This document shows, in pieces, positions 1,574 to 18,397 of a stretch of DNA of 23,459 nucleotides. The stretch comes from a virus. Position 1 is the stretch's first letter. Each line of letters opens with the position of its first letter. The position numbers and the translations under genes were made by a program. The stretch is taken from positions 1 through 23,459 of the IMG/VR virus record IMGVR_UViG_3300037278_000365. The stretch is one strand, 5' to 3'. The notes beneath the pieces are model-generated. The model did no database searches. It was not told the DNA's origin and saw only the letters and a program-made list of their open reading frames with translations.

Positions 1574-4201
1574 ATGACGACTCAAAATAGTGTTGGCACA
1601 TCGCTCTCTGGTCAGTCTGGAACGGGTAATTTTGTTGGATCAGATTCTCCTTCGTTAATAACTGCTACTTTAAATACACCTGCATCAGGTATTCTCACGA
1701 ATTGTACTGGTTTACCCCTAACAACAGGGGTAACCGGTAATTTATCAGTAGGAAACCTTAATAGTGGCACCAGTGCTTCGAGCACGACTTATTGGGCAGG
1801 AAATGGCATATGGTCTGTACCTGCAGGCACCGGCGTAACCAGTGTCTCAGGAACTTCAAATCGAATCACATCTACTGGCGGAACAACGCCAGTAATTGAT
1901 ATTTCCCAAAGTTACGTAGGCCAGACATCAATTACTACTCTGGGCACAATTGGGACAGGAACATGGCAGGCATCTGTCGTACAACCTACCTATGGCGGCC
2001 TAGGCACAGGAATAGCGCCCACTGCCGGACAAATACCGATTGGATTAACAGGCGGAACATATGCACCAGCGGCTATCAATTCTGGCACAAACATTCTGGT
2101 AGGAAATGCTTCGGGTTCAATCACGATTAATTTCTCTGGCAATCTGCCCGTTACAAATCTAAATTCTGGCACAAGTGCATCCGGCACGACCTTCTGGCGC
2201 GGTGATGGCACATGGGGAACGCCAGCGGGAACGGGCGTAACAAGTGTTTCCGGCACATCTAACAGAGTTACATCCACAGGTGGAATTACTCCAGTCATAG
2301 ACATATCTGCGTCTTATGTTGGCCAGAGTTCGATAACCACGCTAGGTACGATTGGTACCGGCGTATGGAACGGAACATTGATTGGCCCTACTTATGGCGG
2401 CACCGGCGTAAATAACGGCTCTAATACGCTGACATTGGCGGGAACTCTTTCAACATCGGGCGCATTTGCTTCTACGTTTACTATGACGGGTGCAACAAAT
2501 GTTACCTTCCCCACAAGCGGAACACTTTTAACTTCGGCTGGCGCAGTTACATCCATCACTGGCACTGCCAATCAGGTGATTGCTTCTGCTAGCACTGGGA
2601 CTGTTACCCTTAGTTTGCCGCAGAGTATTGCAACAAGTAGTGCAGTTCAGTTTAATACTGTAAGACTTAATGCATCTAATATTTTGGACTCAAATGGTAA
2701 TATAGCAGCTTCATTCCCCGCCACCTCTTCGGCAGTTAATTATTTTGTATTAAATAATGCAGCGGGGGTTTCTAATCCAAGCTTATCTCCTGCTGGAATA
2801 CCAACTGACCTTGGCATTAACTTCACTGCCAAAGGTCTAGGTGTTTTTAATTTATCCACTACTGCTGCAACGAATCAATTTATAATGTTTACTGGTTCTG
2901 GTTATCAGCATACTAGCGCATTCTCATTGCCTTCAGCCGCTAGTACTAGTGTATACACCTTCCCAGATGCGAGCGGAACAGTTGCATTGACCTCTGGAGT
3001 TGTATCATCTATCGCAGGAACGTCCAATCAAATCGCAGCATCAGCATCAACTGGCGCAGTTACATTATCCTTGGTTAGCAATCCTATTTTACCAGGTACA
3101 GGAGGCGTTCAATTGCCGGGTGGAACGACTGCTCAGCGTGCAGGAGGAGCAGGTACGATTCGGCTTAATACTCAGACATCATTATTTGAAAGTACAGTTG
3201 ATGGCTCAACATGGGCTACGATAGAAACGAGCGCGGTAGGCGTGACTTCGGTGGCCGGGACGGCTAATGAAATCTTAGTTAATGGTACTACCGGAAGTGG
3301 ACAAACAGGAGCGCTTACGCTTACATTGCCTCAGGCTATTGATACTACCAGTTCACCTACGTTTGCTAGCCCAACATTTACAGGTAATGCTGTGCTCGGA
3401 ACTCCTGCATCCGCCACGTTAACGAATGCTATAGGACTTCCTTTAACGACTGGCGTGAGTGGCAATTTACCTGTGACTAATCTTAATAGCGGAACTGGAG
3501 CATCTAGCACCACTTACTGGTCTGGATCAGGCACATGGACTACTCCAGTTGGTTCATCATTTTCAATTAATGTCCAAACATTTTCAGCAACTGGAACTTA
3601 TACGCCTACGTCAGGAATGGTCTATTGCATCATTGAATGTTGGGGCGGTGGTGCTGGTGGAGGGGGCATAGCTGGATCATCTATACAGGGAGGAGGTGGT
3701 GGTGGTGGACAAGCCGGAGGTTATTCTAGGAAATTTGCATCTGCGACTACAATTGGAGCATCTAAAACCGTAACTATAGGAGGAGCTGGAAATGGTTCAG
3801 GAGGAAATGTTACTGGAGGAGCAGGAGGAAATACTTCAGTAAGCACAATTTGCGTCGCATTAGGTGGAGCTGGAGGAGGAGGATCAGGAGGAGCTGGAGC
3901 TATTGGTGGATATTTAATATCTTTATCAGGAGCTGTAGGTGACATTACTTCCGTGGGAATGGGTGGATTGTCTTCAATAGGAGGAAACACTTCTGTTTAT
4001 GGAAATTCTGGTCAAGGTGGATCTTCATTAATTGGATCAGGTGGAACAGGTATAAATTCTATTGCTACATCTGGAGCTACTGGATCCAATGCTACTGGAT
4101 TCGCATCTGGAGGCGCAGGAGCAGCTGCAAATGGGACAACATCATCTTTTTCTGGTGGTAATGGAACTGGAGGATATGTAGTAATTACAGAATTCATTTA
4201 A
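1574..4201 (+). CDS. modular tail-fibre protein with glycine-rich C-terminal tip
   Basis: 875 residues; ATG preceded by GAAGGAT at a spacing of 6. A module containing [36 protein letters not shown] and PTYGG occurs at residues about 62-146 and again at about 196-280. The pattern [18 protein letters not shown] near residues 35-60 recurs near residue 610-640, directly before the tip. From about residue 665 the protein turns into a glycine-rich domain opening with [18 protein letters not shown] and the WGGGAGGGG run, and ending [10 protein letters not shown], as in glycine-rich receptor-binding tips of phage tail fibres. The repeated cassettes at both ends of the shaft suggest growth and tip exchange by homologous recombination. 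Likely role: host-receptor binding at the distal tail. The family is recognised by architecture only; the receptor cannot be inferred. Confidence 0.82.
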
Positions 4202-6097: not shown

Positions 6098-7780
6098 TCA
6101 ATCAAACACCTTCTTAATAATCCGATAATATCCGTCATCACTCAAAGTACATACCAACGTATGCGGTGTTTTGATATAATGCGATTCAATTAATTCACGC
6201 ATTTTGTTGATATTGGATAAATGCATATAAAATTGGCTGGCATTATCGACGTGTGGTCTCAAAAATTTGGCGTAAAGTATATTTTTATTCTTTGGTGTAT
6301 TAGTGTAGTAGCTTTCAAATACCCTGTGAGCGCCACAGTCGTACGATATATTTATTATCGGCAACAATGTAGTGCCCATTGGAACAACGCTGTATCGGGC
6401 CTCAGTGACGGTTAAAGTGTATGTTTCAGCTTTGATTCGCTTGAGTTTTGCATTTGGGTCGATGAGTTCGGCTTGGCATGATCGGCACATTCTTGCGCAC
6501 TGATCATTTTTTGTTCTACAATTAGGGCATTCTCGCCAATCAAAAAAGTGATCACATCTTTTGTCATCGACAATACCTCGGCACCTCCTTGCCATAAGAG
6601 AGTTATTGCAGCCGCAAGTAAAACATGGTATCGGGTAATCTTCTTCTTTTTCATTTTCTTTTGGCCTAAGAGCTTCATTAATTATTAAATTATCTATATC
6701 TTGATGTCTAGTTAAATTACCAGCAAAATCCAAAATAAGTGCATTTTTTTTTGAATCATGCAGTCGAAGAGCGCGACCTATTCCTTGAACATATAATACC
6801 AGAGATTCCGTAGGCCTCAACCATATTGTTGTGCAGAAATTTGGCACGTCAATGCCTGTCATCAAACAATTGACGCTGATCAAGTATTTTATTTCATTAT
6901 TGCGAGCCATGGTTAATATTTTGTGACGTTCTTTTTCTGGAGTGTCACCTGTAATAATGTATGCTGACCCTTGAGGTAATGCTGCTAAGGCTTCATCGCA
7001 GTGCTTTTTACTACTGCAAAACACAAATGCACCGTTTCTGTCCGCCATGACTTGATTTGCTTCTTGTAATATTTCCCATGTTAAACGCTTGTTTTTGTCA
7101 ACGACTGCCTGTAGTTCAGTAGTGTTGAATTTGCCGGCTTTCATTCTGACCGAGCTAAAATCAAAAGATTGTGTTTCAGGATAACCATAAACCGGTCTTG
7201 CTAAGAAATTATTTTCGATTAACCATGACGTGGTTATATTGGCTACGCGCGACTTAAACAAGCATGAGTCACCAACAATATCATTTCCAGAGCCTCTGAA
7301 ATCTGTGCCCGTTAAGCCGAGTAGCCGCATGGGTTGATACTCTTGCTTATAGTGTCTTAGTATTCTCATGAATTGCGAATCATGAGCTGTATAATTAATT
7401 GAATGAGCCTCGTCTACAACCACTATATTGAAAATAATGTCTTTAATGGGGTGATTGTTCTTGATAGCTGCAATGATTGACTGAGGCGTTGCGAATATAA
7501 TATTCGTATCGAATTCTTTTTTGTTTAATGATGCACAGAAAACTGATGGATTGCCTCCTAATCGTTTAAATGTTTCTGAATTATTTCGTACGAGCTCTGA
7601 GCTGTTGACAAGGCATAATGCGCGTTTATTTTTAAGTTCAAGTTCGCGCATCATACTTCCAATCATGACCGATTTTCCGCTGCCCACACTAGAAACAAAC
7701 AGAACAGGATCATCATTTTTCTTTAATGCTACCCATGCCTCATTGATCCCTGTTTTTTGATAATCCCTTAATTTAAACAT
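6098..7780 (-). CDS. superfamily 2 helicase, RadD-like
   Basis: 560 residues, close to the length of E. coli RadD. N-terminal lobe: LRDYQ near residue 5, Walker A VGSGKSVMIG near 32-41, VVVDEAHS (DEAH box) near 120, LGLTGTD (motif III) near 155. C-terminal lobe: TGIDVPNF and QGIGRALRL (motif VI with arginine finger) near 315-340. Then a cysteine-rich zinc ribbon (CFTCGC, RCRG, CDHF, CPNC, CARMCRSC) and a tail of about 110 residues. Expected activity: ATP-driven DNA unwinding or remodelling, probably at forks or recombination intermediates. The start overlaps the endonuclease VII stop by 8 bases and has no strong ribosome site, so translation is probably coupled. It is the last gene of the leftward operon. 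Confidence 0.88.
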   Translation of the reverse strand: MFKLRDYQKTGINEAWVALKKNDDPVLFVSSVGSGKSVMIGSMMRELELKNKRALCLVNSSELVRNNSETFKRLGGNPSVFCASLNKKEFDTNIIFATPQSIIAAIKNNHPIKDIIFNIVVVDEAHSINYTAHDSQFMRILRHYKQEYQPMRLLGLTGTDFRGSGNDIVGDSCLFKSRVANITTSWLIENNFLARPVYGYPETQSFDFSSVRMKAGKFNTTELQAVVDKNKRLTWEILQEANQVMADRNGAFVFCSSKKHCDEALAALPQGSAYIITGDTPEKERHKILTMARNNEIKYLISVNCLMTGIDVPNFCTTIWLRPTESLVLYVQGIGRALRLHDSKKNALILDFAGNLTRHQDIDNLIINEALRPKENEKEEDYPIPCFTCGCNNSLMARRCRGIVDDKRCDHFFDWRECPNCRTKNDQCARMCRSCQAELIDPNAKLKRIKAETYTLTVTEARYSVVPMGTTLLPIINISYDCGAHRVFESYYTNTPKNKNILYAKFLRPHVDNASQFYMHLSNINKMRELIESHYIKTPHTLVCTLSDDGYYRIIKKVFD

Positions 7781-11812: not shown

Positions 11813-12238
11813 TTAGTTGGCACTCGTAATTAGCACGTTAAGTTTAGATGGTTTTTTGCTCACCATCGTTGCGATCAGCTCCAATTCTTCAGCGCTAGCG
11901 TATTTCTCTGCATCACGAAGAGTAGCTTTATCGATATCAAACGATATACGTTGTTTGACGAAATTGAAACATTGAGGTAATCGTCCAGCTGATATTTGAT
12001 ATTCTTCTTTATTTAAACTGTAGATATAGCCGGTTTTGGCTGTTATCTTCCACTTTCCAACCGTGTAGGATTTGCTGCCATCATCAGTATGATTGAGTAA
12101 TTCAGCAACACGTGGCTCAAGCGCTTCCTTAATTCTTTTTAGCTCGGCAAGTTGGAAATTTATGTTATTCAGCGTGGACACCAAGTCTTGTAATTCATTA
12201 TCACGGGCTTCTTCAGGACTGTATTGATATTCGTTCAT
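11813..12238 (-). CDS. coiled-coil protein at the head of the recombination operon
   Basis: 141 residues; ATG with GAGG nine bases upstream. Residues 8-50 (ARDNELQDLVSTLNNINFQL, then AELKRIKEALEPRVAELL) are a coiled coil; then GKWKITAKTGYIYSLNKEEY begins a strand-rich middle part, and the end (AEKYASAEELELIATMVSKK, PSKLNVLI) is helix then strand. This plan is common among small phage proteins next to Sak4 and SSB genes, some of which modify exonuclease or recombinase activity, but I cannot name a family. First gene after the minus promoter at 12281-12309, so probably an early gene. Confidence 0.7.
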   Translation of the reverse strand: MNEYQYSPEEARDNELQDLVSTLNNINFQLAELKRIKEALEPRVAELLNHTDDGSKSYTVGKWKITAKTGYIYSLNKEEYQISAGRLPQCFNFVKQRISFDIDKATLRDAEKYASAEELELIATMVSKKPSKLNVLITSAN

Positions 12239-12280: not shown

Positions 12281-12322
12281 ATTATATTTCACCTTGTAAT
12301 TTATTGCAACATGAATTACAAT
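12281..12322. promoter_or_regulatory. overlapping divergent promoters with operator dyads
   Basis: Minus strand: TTGCAA (12309-12304), 17 bp, TATAAT (12286-12281), for the recombination operon. Plus strand: TTGTAA (12294-12299), 17 bp, TACAAT (12317-12322), for the Cro-like gene. The two overlap, so they probably exclude each other. A perfect inverted repeat TTGTAATT / AATTACAA (12294-12301 and 12314-12321, 12 bp apart) and a GTAAT-TT-ATTGC dyad (12296-12307) lie inside, as expected for operators of the Cro-like protein. Confidence 0.75.
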
Positions 12323-12341: not shown

Positions 12342-12542
12342 ATGATTATGTTACTAGATGAAGTGATTAAACATTACGGCAGTAAGCTCAAACTATCGAA
12401 GGCGGTTGGTATTGCGATATCTGTTCCGCATGTCTGGGCATTCCGTGGCTACATACCTATTGAAGCTCAGCATAAGATTGAAGATCATTCCCGCGGTCAT
12501 TTAAAAGCTGATTATGCACATGCAAGGAGAAGGTGTTGCTAA
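12342..12542 (+). CDS. Cro-like / YdaS-type repressor
   Basis: 66 residues; a second in-frame ATG at 12348 (MLLDEVIKHYG) has GGAT four bases upstream and may be the true start. The protein is one small helix-turn-helix domain: LDEVIKHYGSKLKLSKAVGI, then SVPHVWAFRGYIPIEAQHKI, as in Cro/YdaS antitoxin-like phage regulators, followed by a basic tail HARRRCC. It should bind the operator dyads just upstream and choose between the two overlapping promoters; the related promoters at 17632 and 18240 carry a similar dyad and may be further targets. No CI partner is visible in the window. The end overlaps the next gene by 10 bases. Confidence 0.82.
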   Translation: MIMLLDEVIKHYGSKLKLSKAVGIAISVPHVWAFRGYIPIEAQHKIEDHSRGHLKADYAHARRRCC

Positions 12543-14838: not shown

Positions 14839-14915
14839 GCGTGGGTACCTCAGCTGGTTAGAGGGGATGGCTTAAAACGCCGGTCAAGTCGCCAGTTCGA
14901 TTCTGGTCCCACGCA
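14839..14915 (+). tRNA. tRNA-like gene with enlarged anticodon arm
   Basis: 77 bases. Acceptor GCGTGGG/CCCACGC pairs perfectly with discriminator A; TA at 8-9; D arm CCTC-AGCTGGTTA-GAGG; G26; variable loop AAGTC; T arm GCCAG-TTCGATT-CTGGT. All match the canonical plan. The anticodon arm is 20 bases instead of 17: GATGGC, loop TTAAAAC, GCCGGTC with one bulged G. Read from that loop the anticodon would be AAA; canonical counting would give UAA (Leu), so identity is unclear. No CCA is encoded. A perfect TATAAT (14827-14832) lies 7 bases upstream, overlapping the stop of the replication gene. It may be a phage tRNA, a rearranged remnant or a tRNA mimic. Confidence 0.6.
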
Positions 14916-14939
14916 CTTAATCTACATTTAGGATTCAAA

Positions 14940-15155
14940 ATGACAAGACACAGAGGCACAGTAAAATGGTTTAACGAAAGCAAAGGATATGGATTTATCA
15001 CTAACAATGACCGTGACTACTTCGTTCACATTAAAGCAATAAAAGACAAAGTTGTTCCTGTTCAAGGACAGCATGTAACATTCATCCCAAAACCTGGCAC
15101 CAAAGGCGAGCAGGCGGGGGATGTTGAGGTGATTGAGGCTGATGGCAATAGGTAG
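14940..15155 (+). CDS. cold-shock domain protein
   Basis: 71 residues; ATG behind AGGA at a spacing of 6. TVKWFNESKGYGFITNNDRD contains the RNP1 motif KGYGFI; YFVHIKAIK is the RNP2 position (usually VFVHFS, so one aromatic is changed to Ile); the C-terminal HVTFIPKPGTKGEQAGDVEV completes the five-stranded OB barrel. Such proteins bind single-stranded RNA and DNA and melt RNA structure, or act as antiterminators. In a phage it may ease translation or termination on its own transcripts. It sits 24 bases downstream of the tRNA-like gene and ends 23 bases from the convergent csrA gene. Confidence 0.9.
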   Translation: MTRHRGTVKWFNESKGYGFITNNDRDYFVHIKAIKDKVVPVQGQHVTFIPKPGTKGEQAGDVEVIEADGNR

Positions 15156-15178: not shown

Positions 15179-15346
15179 TTAAATCGCGTTTAAATCGGTT
15201 TCGTTCTCGGCTTTGGTGATTTTGATATGCGCAGGCGCATCAATGGACATTTTAATTTGTGTCTCACTGATAGAAATTACTTTGATTTTAATTTCTGTAC
15301 CATTGATAAAGATACGCTCATTTAGGCGTCTAGTTAAACTCAGCAT
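15179..15346 (-). CDS. csrA: CsrA-like RNA-binding translational regulator
   Basis: 55 residues from the ATG at 15346, behind ACAGGAGTAATC. MLSLTRRLNERIFINGTEIK aligns with the start of bacterial CsrA, including L4, R6 and R7, and IKMSIDAPAHIKITKAE aligns with the segment carrying R44, which is Lys45 here. CsrA dimers bind GGA motifs in mRNA leaders and block or alter translation. The gene is last in a minus-strand run of small genes, and its own ribosome site contains ACAGGA, the core of a CsrA site, so self-repression is plausible. The R-to-K change keeps charge but may alter specificity. Csr homologues also occur on other mobile elements, where they interfere with host regulation. Confidence 0.85.
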   Translation of the reverse strand: MLSLTRRLNERIFINGTEIKIKVISISETQIKMSIDAPAHIKITKAENETDLNAI

Positions 15347-15357
15347 GATTACTCCTG

Positions 15358-15522
15358 TTATAAAGTTAAATAAAGTTTTTTTTCTGATTGCCATTTCTTT
15401 TGCACTCGAGCAGTACAGGAGCGACAACAGGTAGTATATTTTTTATTTCCTTCACGAGTCATTTTATACATTCTATATTGATTAATTGGTTTTTCAATAA
15501 GGCATGTTGTGCATAAAATCAT
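15358..15522 (-). CDS. 54-residue zinc-knuckle protein
   Basis: ATG at 15522 overlaps the previous stop (ATGA), behind AGAGGAG; the stop TAA abuts the csrA ribosome site. MILCTTCLIEKPINQYRMYK, then YTTCCRSCTARVQKKW: two cysteine pairs C4-x2-C7 and C33-x2-C36 about 25 residues apart, with an aromatic-rich middle and a basic end. This is the same form as the single zinc repeats at the front of the endonuclease VII gene (7773-8504), so it may be a free-standing nucleic-acid-binding copy. Tight coupling to csrA suggests a common purpose. Confidence 0.7.
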   Translation of the reverse strand: MILCTTCLIEKPINQYRMYKMTREGNKKYTTCCRSCTARVQKKWQSEKKLYLTL

Positions 15523-15821
15523 CTCCTCTTCCCTTTATATTTATGTGTATCACAATTATTATACTGATCACATTTAATGAACCAACGATACTCATGATGA
15601 TGCGACTCAGCGCTGCAAGTTGTGGTGAACGTTTGCATCCATGGTGTCATCATGCCAGCGTAATGTTGATTATATCTAACCCATGTTTGTTTGGCGTATA
15701 CTTCGCATTGTTCGGCTGTATCAGCTTTGTATCGCATGTTCCATTGGTGCGCCTCTTTTGGTTGAGAGGGTGATTGCAAAAGGACGATTAACATCCATGC
15801 GCCTGATGTTGCTCCTAACAT
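15519..15821 (-). CDS. small protein with N-terminal hydrophobic segment
   Basis: 100 residues; ATG behind AAGGATAAAAA. MLGATSGAWMLIVLLQSPSQ looks like a membrane anchor or weak signal peptide; the rest is polar with four cysteines (EQCEVYAKQTW, TTTCSAES, IKCDQYNNCDTH) and ends basic (HKYKGKRR). Cysteine spacing suggests disulphides if exported. The start is 14 bases past the preceding stop and the end overlaps the zinc-knuckle start. No family recognised. Confidence 0.65.
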   Translation of the reverse strand: MLGATSGAWMLIVLLQSPSQPKEAHQWNMRYKADTAEQCEVYAKQTWVRYNQHYAGMMTPWMQTFTTTCSAESHHHEYRWFIKCDQYNNCDTHKYKGKRR

Positions 15822-15835
15822 TTTTTATCCTTGTT

Positions 15836-16300
15836 TTAAATGTATCGTAATTTGGTTGCTATTGCGTCGGTTATTTCCTGGGCTAACATTTCTGGATAGA
15901 CTTCTAGGTATTCACAGATCTCCATATTGATGTGCAAATGATTTTCTATCGTCTCCAGTATCGTGTCCTTTATGCTGAATCCATTGATGGTATAGTCCAT
16001 ATTGGTTAGGTTTGATGGTATCGTGCCGGTTGCTGCGTTTCCGGATAATGAGATAGATTTTGGCATGGAATAATGACACTCATCTTTAATCTCTCCTTGG
16101 CATTCTTCTCCGCATTTTAAACAGTCACGGGTATTGTACTCATCATCCCAGCATATCCATTCATGATCACAATAGTTGTCGATTAGGGATTGGATTTTGT
16201 GTATCAAAGGATTAGGTTCAACCATGCATTCAATGCCATAGATTCGATCCCATAGACTTGCCAATAGTTCTTTTAACTCTTCTTTCGTGAAGTCATTCAT
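15836..16300 (-). CDS. protein with MNDFTKEEL head and zinc ribbon, unknown role
   Basis: 154 residues from the ATG at 16300, five bases after the GGGGG ribosome site; another ATG lies directly before it. The start overlaps the preceding gene by 8 bases. MNDFTKEELKELLASLWDRI begins a helical domain resembling the head of the preceding protein (MNNFTKKEI). Residues about 40-68 (YCDHEWICWDDEYNTRDCLKCGEE) give a CxHEW...CxxCGE zinc ribbon typical of small phage proteins. The last 80 residues (FSIKDTILETIENHLHINME, then EMLAQEITDAIATKL) are helical and acidic. No enzymatic motif. Confidence 0.65.
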   Translation of the reverse strand: MNDFTKEELKELLASLWDRIYGIECMVEPNPLIHKIQSLIDNYCDHEWICWDDEYNTRDCLKCGEECQGEIKDECHYSMPKSISLSGNAATGTIPSNLTNMDYTINGFSIKDTILETIENHLHINMEICEYLEVYPEMLAQEITDAIATKLRYI

Positions 16301-16463
16301 CATCACCCCCTTCTGGGCAATACATTGGTTTGCCATAACTATCAAGTCTCGCTTTCAGTTTGTCTCTCAGTACATAAGACGAATCAGGTTCGTGATACTC
16401 CTCGATTGCCCAAGTAATCATTTGCCATAATGTATGAATTTCTTTTTTCGTGAAGTTATTCAT
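16293..16463 (-). CDS. 56-residue acidic helical protein
   Basis: ATG at 16463 overlaps the stop of the 28-residue gene (ATGA). MNNFTKKEIHTLWQMITWAI, then EYHEPDSSYVLRDKLKARLD, ending CPEGGDDE. The first 20 residues resemble the head of the next protein, suggesting a duplication in which this copy lost the zinc ribbon, keeping only one Cys. No known family and no recognisable active site. Confidence 0.6.
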   Translation of the reverse strand: MNNFTKKEIHTLWQMITWAIEEYHEPDSSYVLRDKLKARLDSYGKPMYCPEGGDDE

Positions 16464-16546
16464 GATAACAACCAAAGCGTTACGCAAACGATTAAAGTAC
16501 AAGCAATGACTGTTTTGCATATATTTTCTATGTCTTCACTATTCAT
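16460..16546 (-). CDS. 28-residue single-span membrane peptide
   Basis: ATG at 16546 overlaps the previous stop and its own stop overlaps the next start, both as ATGA; this exact fit is the main support. MNSEDIENICKTVIACTLIV, then CVTLWLLS: an acidic nine-residue head and one membrane helix. Function unknown. The duplicated DNA block at 16542-16579 supplies its start region. Confidence 0.5.
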   Translation of the reverse strand: MNSEDIENICKTVIACTLIVCVTLWLLS

Positions 16547-16758
16547 CTGTAAAACTCTCCGCAATGAATACATTTAAATCGTGGGGGATTGGTCAAATAA
16601 CAATTTCCATCCGCATGATGTTCATGTGATTTTAGTTTAGAGAAATCATATTTATTTATGAAGTTCTCAAGACTTGTTATTCTTTGCTCCAAGCGCAAAA
16701 ACATGTTGATAACATCAGATTTCATCTGTAGAATTCTCCGCATTTAATGCACTTAAAT
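16542..16758. repeat. direct repeat of gene-end and start signal (two 38-bp copies)
   Basis: Copies at 16542-16579 and 16721-16758 agree at 32 of 38 positions by my alignment. Each encodes the ending F-K-C-I-x-C-G-E-F-Y-R, the stop and the overlapping ATG of the next gene. Between them lies the 60-residue gene, consistent with a tandem duplication or recombination that inserted it. Confidence 0.7.
16543..16725 (-). CDS. 60-residue coiled-coil and zinc-knuckle protein
   Basis: ATG at 16725 overlaps the preceding stop (ATGA). A coiled coil (MKSDVINMFLRLEQRITSLE) is followed by SHEHHADGNCYLTNPPRF and the ending FKCIHCGEFYR, which matches the end of the upstream protein (FKCIKCGEFYR). His and Cys spacing gives a possible zinc site. 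The shared ending is encoded by a duplicated DNA segment. Probably a derived partial copy of the larger neighbour; role unknown. Confidence 0.65.
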   Translation of the reverse strand: MKSDVINMFLRLEQRITSLENFINKYDFSKLKSHEHHADGNCYLTNPPRFKCIHCGEFYR

Positions 16759-17408
16759 TTATAACCATCATCTTCTTTTTTAAATTGATTCCAATCGGTT
16801 TCATGCTTGCATTCAATTTGTAATCCGCATTCTCCGCAATCACCATATTTACTCATTAATTCATGCTCACATTCTTCACGATTACCCAGCTTTGCGCCGG
16901 AGACGTTGCAGTATTCGCTATCTTCAAAGTTTGAACGCATAAATCCTATCCCATAATTTAGAGCGTCTTCCGATGCTTTTTTGTATGCCTCATTGAATGA
17001 GGTCTTCCATTCGCCGCTTAATATTTGTTCATTCCTCAATTCTTGCCAATATTCAATCTGGGATTCGATTAATTGGGCTTTGGTGGGGTATATTTTTAAT
17101 CCGCCTTCAGTGCATTCCTTGTATTGTTCAAGAGTAAATTGATGGTCTGAAATATCCATGTCACCATTAACGAACCATCCATGAATTAATTCCGGCTCTG
17201 GCTGGGTTAATTCTTTCAATCTAGCAACCAAGGCATCAACTGAATCAAAAGTATTGTGAGGCAACCTGTCACCAGACAAGATATACTCAATTGTTGGTTT
17301 ATTATCGTATACATGATTAAAGTTGTAGCGTTCAATGCTGATTCTCGTATAACCAGCGGTTTTAGCCGTATATTGGTCTGCAAGCTCATAAGCCAATTCA
17401 ATACTCAT
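16722..17408 (-). CDS. 228-residue protein with C-terminal zinc ribbon, unknown role
   Basis: ATG at 17408 overlaps the preceding stop (ATGA). Residues 1-70 (MSIELAYELADQYTAKTAGY onward) look alpha/beta; residues about 75-170 contain FVNGDMDISDHQFTLEQYKE and a helical, acidic middle (AYKKASEDALNYGIGFMRSN). The last 55 residues hold CEHELMSKYGDCGECGLQIE, then CKHETDW and KFKCIKCGEFYR: two Cys/His sets likely to bind zinc. Largest gene in the small-gene operon; no known catalytic motif. A hub or sequestering protein during early infection is possible. Confidence 0.65.
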   Translation of the reverse strand: MSIELAYELADQYTAKTAGYTRISIERYNFNHVYDNKPTIEYILSGDRLPHNTFDSVDALVARLKELTQPEPELIHGWFVNGDMDISDHQFTLEQYKECTEGGLKIYPTKAQLIESQIEYWQELRNEQILSGEWKTSFNEAYKKASEDALNYGIGFMRSNFEDSEYCNVSGAKLGNREECEHELMSKYGDCGECGLQIECKHETDWNQFKKEDDGYKFKCIKCGEFYR

Positions 17409-17605
17409 AACAATTTCTCCAAGTCAGATGCCATTTGAACAATGCTGTCTGCAATTTCTTCAAGCGATAGGTTTGACTCATATATATCAAACGGGATGAC
17501 GTCATCCCAGTCATTTAATAACGTTTCGATAATCGTATCAAAATTCATATCTGGATTGTATTTTTGAAGATAATGATTGACCGCAAATTGCTGGTATTTA
17601 TTCAT
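17405..17605 (-). CDS. 66-residue acidic protein, first gene after promoter at 17632
   Basis: ATG behind AACAGGAGTTTTAA, a strong ribosome site that also contains ACAGGA, the core of a CsrA site. MNKYQQFAVNHYLQKYNPDM, then NFDTIIETLLNDWDDVIPFD and LSLEEIADSIVQMASDLEKL: helical and rich in Asp and Glu, a composition seen in phage DNA-mimic or inhibitor proteins, though nothing more specific supports that. Coupled to the next gene. Confidence 0.65.
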   Translation of the reverse strand: MNKYQQFAVNHYLQKYNPDMNFDTIIETLLNDWDDVIPFDIYESNLSLEEIADSIVQMASDLEKLL

Positions 17606-17631
17606 TTAAAACTCCTGTTGGTTATGCCTGT

Positions 17632-17660
17632 ATTATATTACATCGTGCAATGAATTGCAA
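17632..17660 (-). promoter_or_regulatory. repeated early promoter, copy 2
   Basis: Minus strand TTGCAA (17660-17655), 17 bp, TATAAT (17637-17632). Within it lies the perfect dyad GCAAT-TC-ATTGC (17659-17648). The promoter overlaps the last codons and the TAA stop of the gene at 17633-17848, and drives the gene starting at 17605. Confidence 0.8.
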
Positions 17661-17848
17661 TGCTTTAATGGAAATTCTGATTGTTTGTATAGACTGATCG
17701 CGTGAGCCAGGTTTGTTAATCCATATTCTAAGTCTTCAATTTCTTCGTAGTTTAATACGGTGGTTCTACCGTTTAAGGTGATGTAGGTTAACGGCTCTAT
17801 ATATTTTATGTTTAATTTGAAGTTTTTGGTTAGGTCGGTCAGGTTCAT
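17633..17848 (-). CDS. 71-residue protein of unknown function
   Basis: ATG overlaps the preceding stop (ATGA at 17848-17845). MNLTDLTKNFKLNIKYIEPL, TYITLNGRTTVLNYEEIEDL, then EYGLTNLAHAISLYKQSEF: strands, then helices. The final codons (CNSLHDVI) are also the -35 box, operator and -10 box of the next promoter, so the end of the protein is constrained by regulation. No family recognised. Confidence 0.65.
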   Translation of the reverse strand: MNLTDLTKNFKLNIKYIEPLTYITLNGRTTVLNYEEIEDLEYGLTNLAHAISLYKQSEFPLKHCNSLHDVI

Positions 17849-18045
17849 GATTGCTCCAGCTTCAATGGCTCGGGTTTCAATTCAATATTATTGTCTATTG
17901 CATAAGCGCTTAACGTATGAAAATTATCATAACCATACCATCGTGATACTAGATGCAGGAGCTTGTTGTATGATGCTTTATCGTCATATTGTTCGAGTAC
18001 GTTCTGCATCTTTCTTGCTATTGCTTTTACGTCTTGGATGGCCAT
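17845..18045 (-). CDS. 66-residue helical protein
   Basis: ATG overlaps the stop of the first operon gene (TAATG). MAIQDVKAIARKMQNVLEQY, then YNKLLHLVSRWYGYDNFHTL and SAYAIDNNIELKPEP. The piece LLHLVSRWYGYDNFHTLSA resembles a short helical motif (…GYxxWxTLSA) seen in several mobile-element proteins, which may be a nucleic-acid or protein-binding module; the match is by eye. Function unknown. Confidence 0.6.
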   Translation of the reverse strand: MAIQDVKAIARKMQNVLEQYDDKASYNKLLHLVSRWYGYDNFHTLSAYAIDNNIELKPEPLKLEQS

Positions 18046-18206
18046 TATTCTTCATTCCAGTCTGATATAGCTATTCGTCCATCTTTGCGTGCTTCTAGTT
18101 CGGTTGCAAAGTCATTGCCGCTTTCTGCTACTGAGTCGCCTACGTAGTTTTCTATTGACCATGCCCATAGGCCGTTGTATTCGGATACTTTTAGTTTGTA
18201 GTTCAC
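18045..18206 (-). CDS. 53-residue protein, first gene after promoter at 18240
   Basis: GTG start at 18206 behind AACAGGAGTTAAAA; stop overlaps the next ATG by one base. MNYKLKVSEYNGLWAWSIEN, then YVGDSVAESGNDFATELEAR and KDGRIAISDWNEE: a small strand-rich acidic protein with conserved-looking Trp residues. No ATG alternative fits. The leader with ACAGGA is nearly the same as that of the gene at 17605 and of csrA. No family recognised. Confidence 0.6.
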   Translation of the reverse strand: MNYKLKVSEYNGLWAWSIENYVGDSVAESGNDFATELEARKDGRIAISDWNEE

Positions 18207-18239
18207 TTTTAACTCCTGTTATGTTGTTTTGATGTGGTA

Positions 18240-18268
18240 ATTATATTGCACGGCGTAATGAATTGCAA
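18240..18268 (-). promoter_or_regulatory. repeated early promoter, copy 3
   Basis: Minus strand TTGCAA (18268-18263), 17 bp, TATAAT (18245-18240), with the dyad GCAAT-TC-ATTAC in the spacer (18267-18256). It matches copy 2 at most positions and shares its downstream AACAGGAGT leader. It drives the operon starting at 18206. Confidence 0.8.
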
Positions 18269-18397
18269 GGGATTGATGAGGAATATGAGTTTTTTGTAGT
18301 GAATTGCTGTGGTAAAGATGTGTGCAGCACCTCTTTAGTCCTGTTGATTGCCTGTGGACAGGGGTTGTGATACCATCGTTCACAGTTACACACAGCT

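Follow-up and report, generated by a model that had tools for sequence, protein, structure and literature searches.

The window, by which we mean the whole 23.5-kb viral-class record analyzed here, belongs to an uncultured tailed phage and encodes a CsrA-family protein, and three genes of its leftward csrA operon share the string AACAGGAGT just before their starts. We think it rather probable that this string is an ordinary ribosome site, twice copied with a promoter, that the operon is switched at transcription, and that the phage CsrA acts elsewhere.

The csrA gene and its phage lineage

The csrA gene (15179..15346, minus strand; 55 aa), assigned from Pfam, PHROG, a sequence alignment and an AlphaFold model, has its ATG at 15346 and is the final gene of a leftward array. 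PF02599 matched positions 15206-15346 on the minus strand (E 2e-15, 51.8-53.3 bits against a cut-off of 27), and the product matched PHROG 9500, "CsrA-like regulator", at 5.7e-13. The AlphaFold model has a mean pLDDT of 80.6 and a pTM of 0.56, with a short C-terminal portion of low confidence. Its top 14 Foldseek matches in the PDB are all CsrA, RsmA or RsmE chains (probability 1.00, TM 0.63-0.76), with E values of just 1e-3 to 2e-2 for a protein of only 55 aa. By profile and modeled fold the product is a member of the CsrA family, and the phage csrA gene claimed in the original prediction is real.

We compared 46 CsrA sequences, that of the window and 45 others (44 phage-encoded, plus E. coli). 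Residues L2, R6, A36, P37, and E46 are invariant across this set and are all kept in the window's CsrA, which also retains the RNA contacts L2, L4, R6, R7, and E46, with V40 and V42 each present as Ile. In the CsrA family, L4 and R44 count as the critical contacts. Residue 44, an Arg in 45 of the 46, is Lys in the window's protein, which is also the only one with Asn, not Ile, at residue 47. Arg44 makes a stacking contact with the A of A(N)GGA where the site is N-less or single-stranded (PMC4005645). The R44A variant of E. coli CsrA is binding-defective, with regulation abolished, and placing R44A in one face of the dimer showed that full glgC repression needs both faces (PMC7652899). Some RNA binding may be retained with Lys at this position.

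Relatives were gathered via the terminase, giving 75 contigs, or 76 with the window; when viral contigs were scanned with this CsrA as the only query, no relative emerged. The terminase is at most about 33% identical to those of named phages, and by this measure the lineage is one without close cultured relatives. Rhodospirillaceae and Bacteroidetes were considered as hosts and rejected, the terminase search having given just two MAG contigs so labelled, which were not trusted. Including the window, 26 contigs are csrA-positive, and in all 26 csrA lies upstream of the terminase gene and antisense to it, a fixed location that is a new result. Identity between the window's CsrA and the other CsrAs of the lineage is 28-47%, and the persistence of one site despite such wide divergence suggests that these phages repeatedly profit from the gene. 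The inheritance of csrA and that of the terminase are weakly correlated (Mantel r 0.14, p 0.04), a relationship that vanishes without close pairs, and in-place replacement of csrA is possible.

A gene for a cold-shock (CspA-like) RNA/DNA-binding protein (14940..15155, plus strand; PF00313, 3.1e-16) is convergent with csrA; in the window, as in L047 and L056, 0-30 nt separate the two. Cold-shock-domain genes were found in 7 of the 26 csrA-positive and 3 of the 50 csrA-negative contigs and are listed for L047, L056, L040, L042, L054, and L063. The window also has a tRNA (14839-14916; Rfam tRNA, 45.6 bits), flanked by the replication gene and the cold-shock gene, its predicted identity being Phe and its anticodon, AAA, an unusual one.

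The shared string, predicted promoters and a candidate operator

It had been claimed that a common string stands directly before three starts, over their ribosome sites, and this was borne out: AACAGGAGT has exactly three copies in the window and none elsewhere in it, each 4-5 nt 5' of a start. The copies, all read from the minus strand as ribosome sites, lie at 15351..15359 (csrA; leader and start ttataACAGGAGTaatc-ATG), 17611..17619 (gene 17605; aaccAACAGGAGTtttaa-ATG), and 18212..18220 (gene 18206; cataACAGGAGTtaaaa-GTG). These genes belong to a run of small minus-strand genes extending leftward from 18206 to 15179, with csrA last. Gene 18206 (18045..18206, minus strand; 53 aa, GTG start) heads the array, and for neither it nor gene 17605 (17405..17605, minus strand; 66 aa) were relatives found except the same virus in another sample. 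The gene just upstream of csrA (15358..15522, minus strand; 54 aa) encodes a zinc-ribbon-like fragment that resembles part of the HNH / endonuclease VII families (PHROG 2255, 3.2e-5). Its TAA stop (15360-15358) is overlapped by csrA's copy of AACAGGAGT, so that terminating ribosomes would cover the site.

The exact pattern TTGCAA-N17-TATAAT occurs three times in the window, always on the minus strand. Two of these predicted promoters precede gene 17605 (17632..17660, overlapping the TTGCAATTCATTGCA dyad) and gene 18206 (18240..18268, a consensus match in the second copy of the module). Positions 17598-17700 align with 18199-18308 over promoter and leader, and in both modules TTGCAA-N17-TATAAT is followed by AACAGGAGTT. 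Because each ends a duplicated promoter module, the leaders of 17605 and 18206 are not independent. The proposed operon and the csrA within it are real, with the amendment that a separate promoter is predicted for each of 17605 and 18206, within this duplicated module. The third predicted promoter (12281..12309, minus strand) stands ahead of the other operon that reads leftward (gene 11813-12238). The leader behind it is without ACAGGA, which we counted in favor of the ribosome-site reading.

The motif TTGYAATTYAT has five exact matches in the window against 0.18 expected. Two inverted copies lie in the divergent control region ahead of a Cro-like gene (12294..12321), where they form a candidate operator for the Cro-like protein; others lie at 17650-17660 and 18258-18268, within both csrA-operon promoters, and the fifth is just inside gene 11813-12238. 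A P22-Cro-like transcription regulator (12342..12542, plus strand; 66 aa) was recognized by PHROG 409 and by PF14549 (5.3e-7; 29.7 bits, slightly below the cut-off of 30.2). The promoter and operator assignments, which are consensus matches with a motif picked after inspection, suggest as a hypothesis that the phage's own regulator controls the csrA operon at transcription via TTGYAATTYAT.

In the explanation that we prefer, AACAGGAGT would serve simply as a ribosome site, its AGGAG lying 5-6 nt 5' of the start; two copies would be alike through joint duplication of promoter and leader, and the third through convergence or a chance match. The csrA operon would be switched mainly at transcription from its two TTGCAA-17-TATAAT promoters, probably via the Cro-type operator TTGYAATTYAT common to the phage control region. 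The phage CsrA would probably act on other RNAs, most likely host mRNAs, by analogy with RsmQ.

Shuffled sequences would be expected to contain 0.09 copies of AACAGGAGT, and 0 of 100 reached three; ribosome sites are not random sequence, and for this reason the leaders of related phages are the fair yardstick. Among 1925 leaders of the 75 terminase-related contigs, with starts picked by a simple script, AACAGGAGT occurs once, compared with 3 of the 42 leaders of the window (p 3.6e-5, or 1.3e-3 with the duplicated pair counted once). ACAGGAG occurs in 13 of the same 1925 against 3 of 42 (p 0.004; 0.04 counted once). We counted the over-representation of AACAGGAGT, with the duplicate taken once, against the ribosome-site reading. 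Some 9-mer common to three leaders was present in 12 of the 76 contigs (window included), csrA-less ones among them, and was mostly placed around the ribosome site, so such sharing is itself not rare. The signal that is left after the duplication and this 9-mer background is modest.

Leader features and the record of relatives

The original prediction took ACAGGA to be the core of the known CsrA consensus, which is wrong. In the SELEX consensus RUACARGGAUGU, ACA and GGA are invariant and a single nucleotide separates them; the site mostly lies in a hairpin loop, and the core is ACA-R-GGA (PMC7652899). The three leader sites read ACAGGAG, without the R. RsmE bound the ANGGAX hexaloop at 16 and 185 nM and other RsmZ sites, N-less ones included, at 1.5-3.5 uM (PMC4005645), GGA sites without the intervening nucleotide forming a low-affinity class. 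GGA is the minimal CsrA contact, CsrA bridging uses two sites 10-63 nt apart, and one single-site target is known (PMC7652899). Each of the three leaders has a single GGA from -80 to +90, that of the ribosome site, with no second site in this interval, two or more being usual and not obligatory. Folding of the leaders is no more stable than that of shuffled sequences (z 0.60, 0.61, and 0.33). They contain no stable hairpin, with short segments reaching only -0.3 to -1.4 kcal/mol, and in none of them does a stem close an A(N)GGA(N) loop. An Rfam search of the window gave no decoy RNA of the known CsrB/RsmZ kind, a tRNA being the sole match.

A surplus of GGA sites near the starts of phage csrA genes (2.27 vs 2.01 per 120 nt, p 0.13) was considered and rejected, as were two would-be marks of csrA-bearing phages: hairpin-presented GGA (33/780 in csrA-bearing and 54/1189 in csrA-less relatives) and ACAGGA in general (1.5% of leaders in csrA-positive relatives, 1.9% in csrA-negative ones, p 0.59). 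Several late-gene leaders of relatives form a perfect 4-7 bp hairpin immediately 5' of the start, with the GGA of the ribosome site in its loop (L084:10001, L080:2189, L029:8668, L088:14069, and L079:10631 among others), as in ATGAATA-AGGAT-TATTCAT before a terminase gene. Pooled and set against permuted flanks, GGA-loop hairpins number 85 versus 51 expected in csrA-positive contigs and 131 versus 76 in csrA-negative ones, the contigs being related and not independent. Hairpins of this late-gene type were not seen in the window.

Conservation of ACAGGA at orthologous csrA leaders is absent in nearly all relatives. Before csrA these relatives have strong ribosome sites, for the most part AAGGAG or AAGGAT; among the csrA-bearing terminase relatives, ACAGGA at this place is confined to one related pair (L096/L097), and ACAAGGA is found there in L100 and L114. 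In a wider scan of 46 non-redundant phage csrA leaders, among which L024 was mis-cut and has no valid leader, ACAGGA precedes csrA in 4/44 cases versus 48/1763 other leaders with GGA (p 0.035). In the same scan ACA(R)GGA precedes csrA in 6/44 cases versus 125/1763 leaders with GGA (p 0.13). When 18 csrA-positive contigs were compared by operon position, window and one related pair included, ACA(R)GGA was present in 22% of csrA leaders (p 0.008) and 17% of csrA-operon first-gene leaders (p 0.047) versus 4.5% of the rest, and in 8% of other csrA-operon leaders. With the window left out, it was present in 9.6% of leftward leaders and 3.4% of rightward leaders upstream of the terminase in the same csrA-positive contigs (p 0.007). 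Leftward leaders of csrA-less contigs had it in 5.0% of cases, a difference from the 9.6% that is not significant (p 0.115; p 0.31 given GGA), and ACAGGA alone showed no excess in this leftward comparison of relatives (2.9% vs 4.4%). The contigs being related, these p values are optimistic, and several patterns were tried. The mild enrichment of ACA(R)GGA in csrA-operon leaders, which better ribosome sites partly explain, was counted against the ribosome-site reading, as was ACAGGA before phage csrA (p 0.035).

Two observations concern relatives. In L013 the gene heading the csrA array (6948-7145, minus strand) has the leader and start GACAAGGATTGTC-ATG, with a near-perfect CsrA consensus ACAAGGAU, a 4-bp stem and an AGGAU loop; judged by its leader, it would be the best candidate for phage CsrA control. 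In L034/L035 the leader of csrA and that of another gene of the same operon (2597-2782 and 3884-4024, minus strand) share the 13 nt AAAAGGAGATTTA.

Competing explanations and known systems

The original prediction envisaged an autonomous translational switch, in which the phage CsrA would bind the ACAGGAG that overlaps each ribosome site of csrA, 17605, and 18206 and repress all three, limiting its own synthesis. Of this proposal csrA, the operon and the string stand, while the switch itself, for want of a second site, a hairpin, the R, Arg44 and motif conservation, is a less likely reading than the ordinary ribosome site, and we judge it unlikely; the caution attached to it, that the match was suggestive only, was fair. 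That the window has the exact 9-mer at these three leaders only argues for such control, as do the repression by E. coli CsrA of its own translation and the precedent of a single-site target (PMC7652899), and the main contact residues are all kept save R44 and I47. Against this, N-less sites bind RsmE at micromolar strength, compared with 16 nM for the hexaloop, and the residue that stacks on the A in such sites (PMC4005645) is the one that is Lys uniquely among 46 sequences; the leaders have one GGA each and no hairpin, and ACAGGA is missing before csrA in nearly all relatives. The enrichment of ACA(R)GGA in csrA and first-gene leaders of the 18 related phages is the sole positive comparative sign for a switch, and a weak one, losing significance against csrA-less leftward leaders, where ACAGGA has no excess. 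A broader version, in which the lineage's CsrA sets csrA-operon translation via weak, rapidly shifting ACA(R)GGA sites and the window is the most visible case, we consider quite unlikely.

The substitutions also allow for a protein that pairs with host CsrA monomers and, through an RNA face weakened by K44, N47 and a short C-terminus, dampens host Csr. Among the 46 sequences R44K and I47N each occur in the window's CsrA only, its short C-terminal part is modeled with low confidence, and the R44A results, including the need for both faces in full glgC repression (PMC7652899), are consistent with such a decoy. Lys preserves the charge at 44, however, the remaining contacts (L2, L4, R6, R7, E46, and V40 and V42 as Ile) are kept, and the lineage's other CsrAs keep Arg44 and look competent, making this very unlikely in our estimation. 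It is scarcely credible that host CsrA binds the three leaders while the phage copy has no part in controlling them: the sites coincide with ribosome sites and the GGA in them is the minimal contact (PMC7652899), but they have the same weaknesses for host as for phage CsrA, and ACAGGA is rare in the leaders of these phages with or without csrA.

If true, autoregulation of csrA would constitute a compact phage translational circuit, and the Lys44 variant bears on whether such proteins still bind GGA RNA. The E. coli csrA gene likewise has a GGA at its own ribosome site, but its leader contains four CsrA sites, compared with one GGA and no ACARGGA core in the window (PMC7652899). RsmQ of plasmid pQBR103 is likewise a CsrA-family protein of a mobile element, and it acts on host translation, a role that was tested, whereas the window's CsrA is known from sequence and a model (PMC9928087). 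Phage csrA genes have already been described: CsrA/Rsm homologues were found in 30 of 2517 phage genomes (Sobrero and Valverde 2020, PMC7366521), a survey that names no functionally tested phage CsrA, and these, like the members of PHROG 9500, are small CsrA-family proteins in phage genomes. Compared with the surveyed homologues, the csrA of the window belongs to an uncultured lineage in which it holds one fixed position, and it encodes Lys at residue 44; this variant and the conserved genomic position are the points worth keeping.
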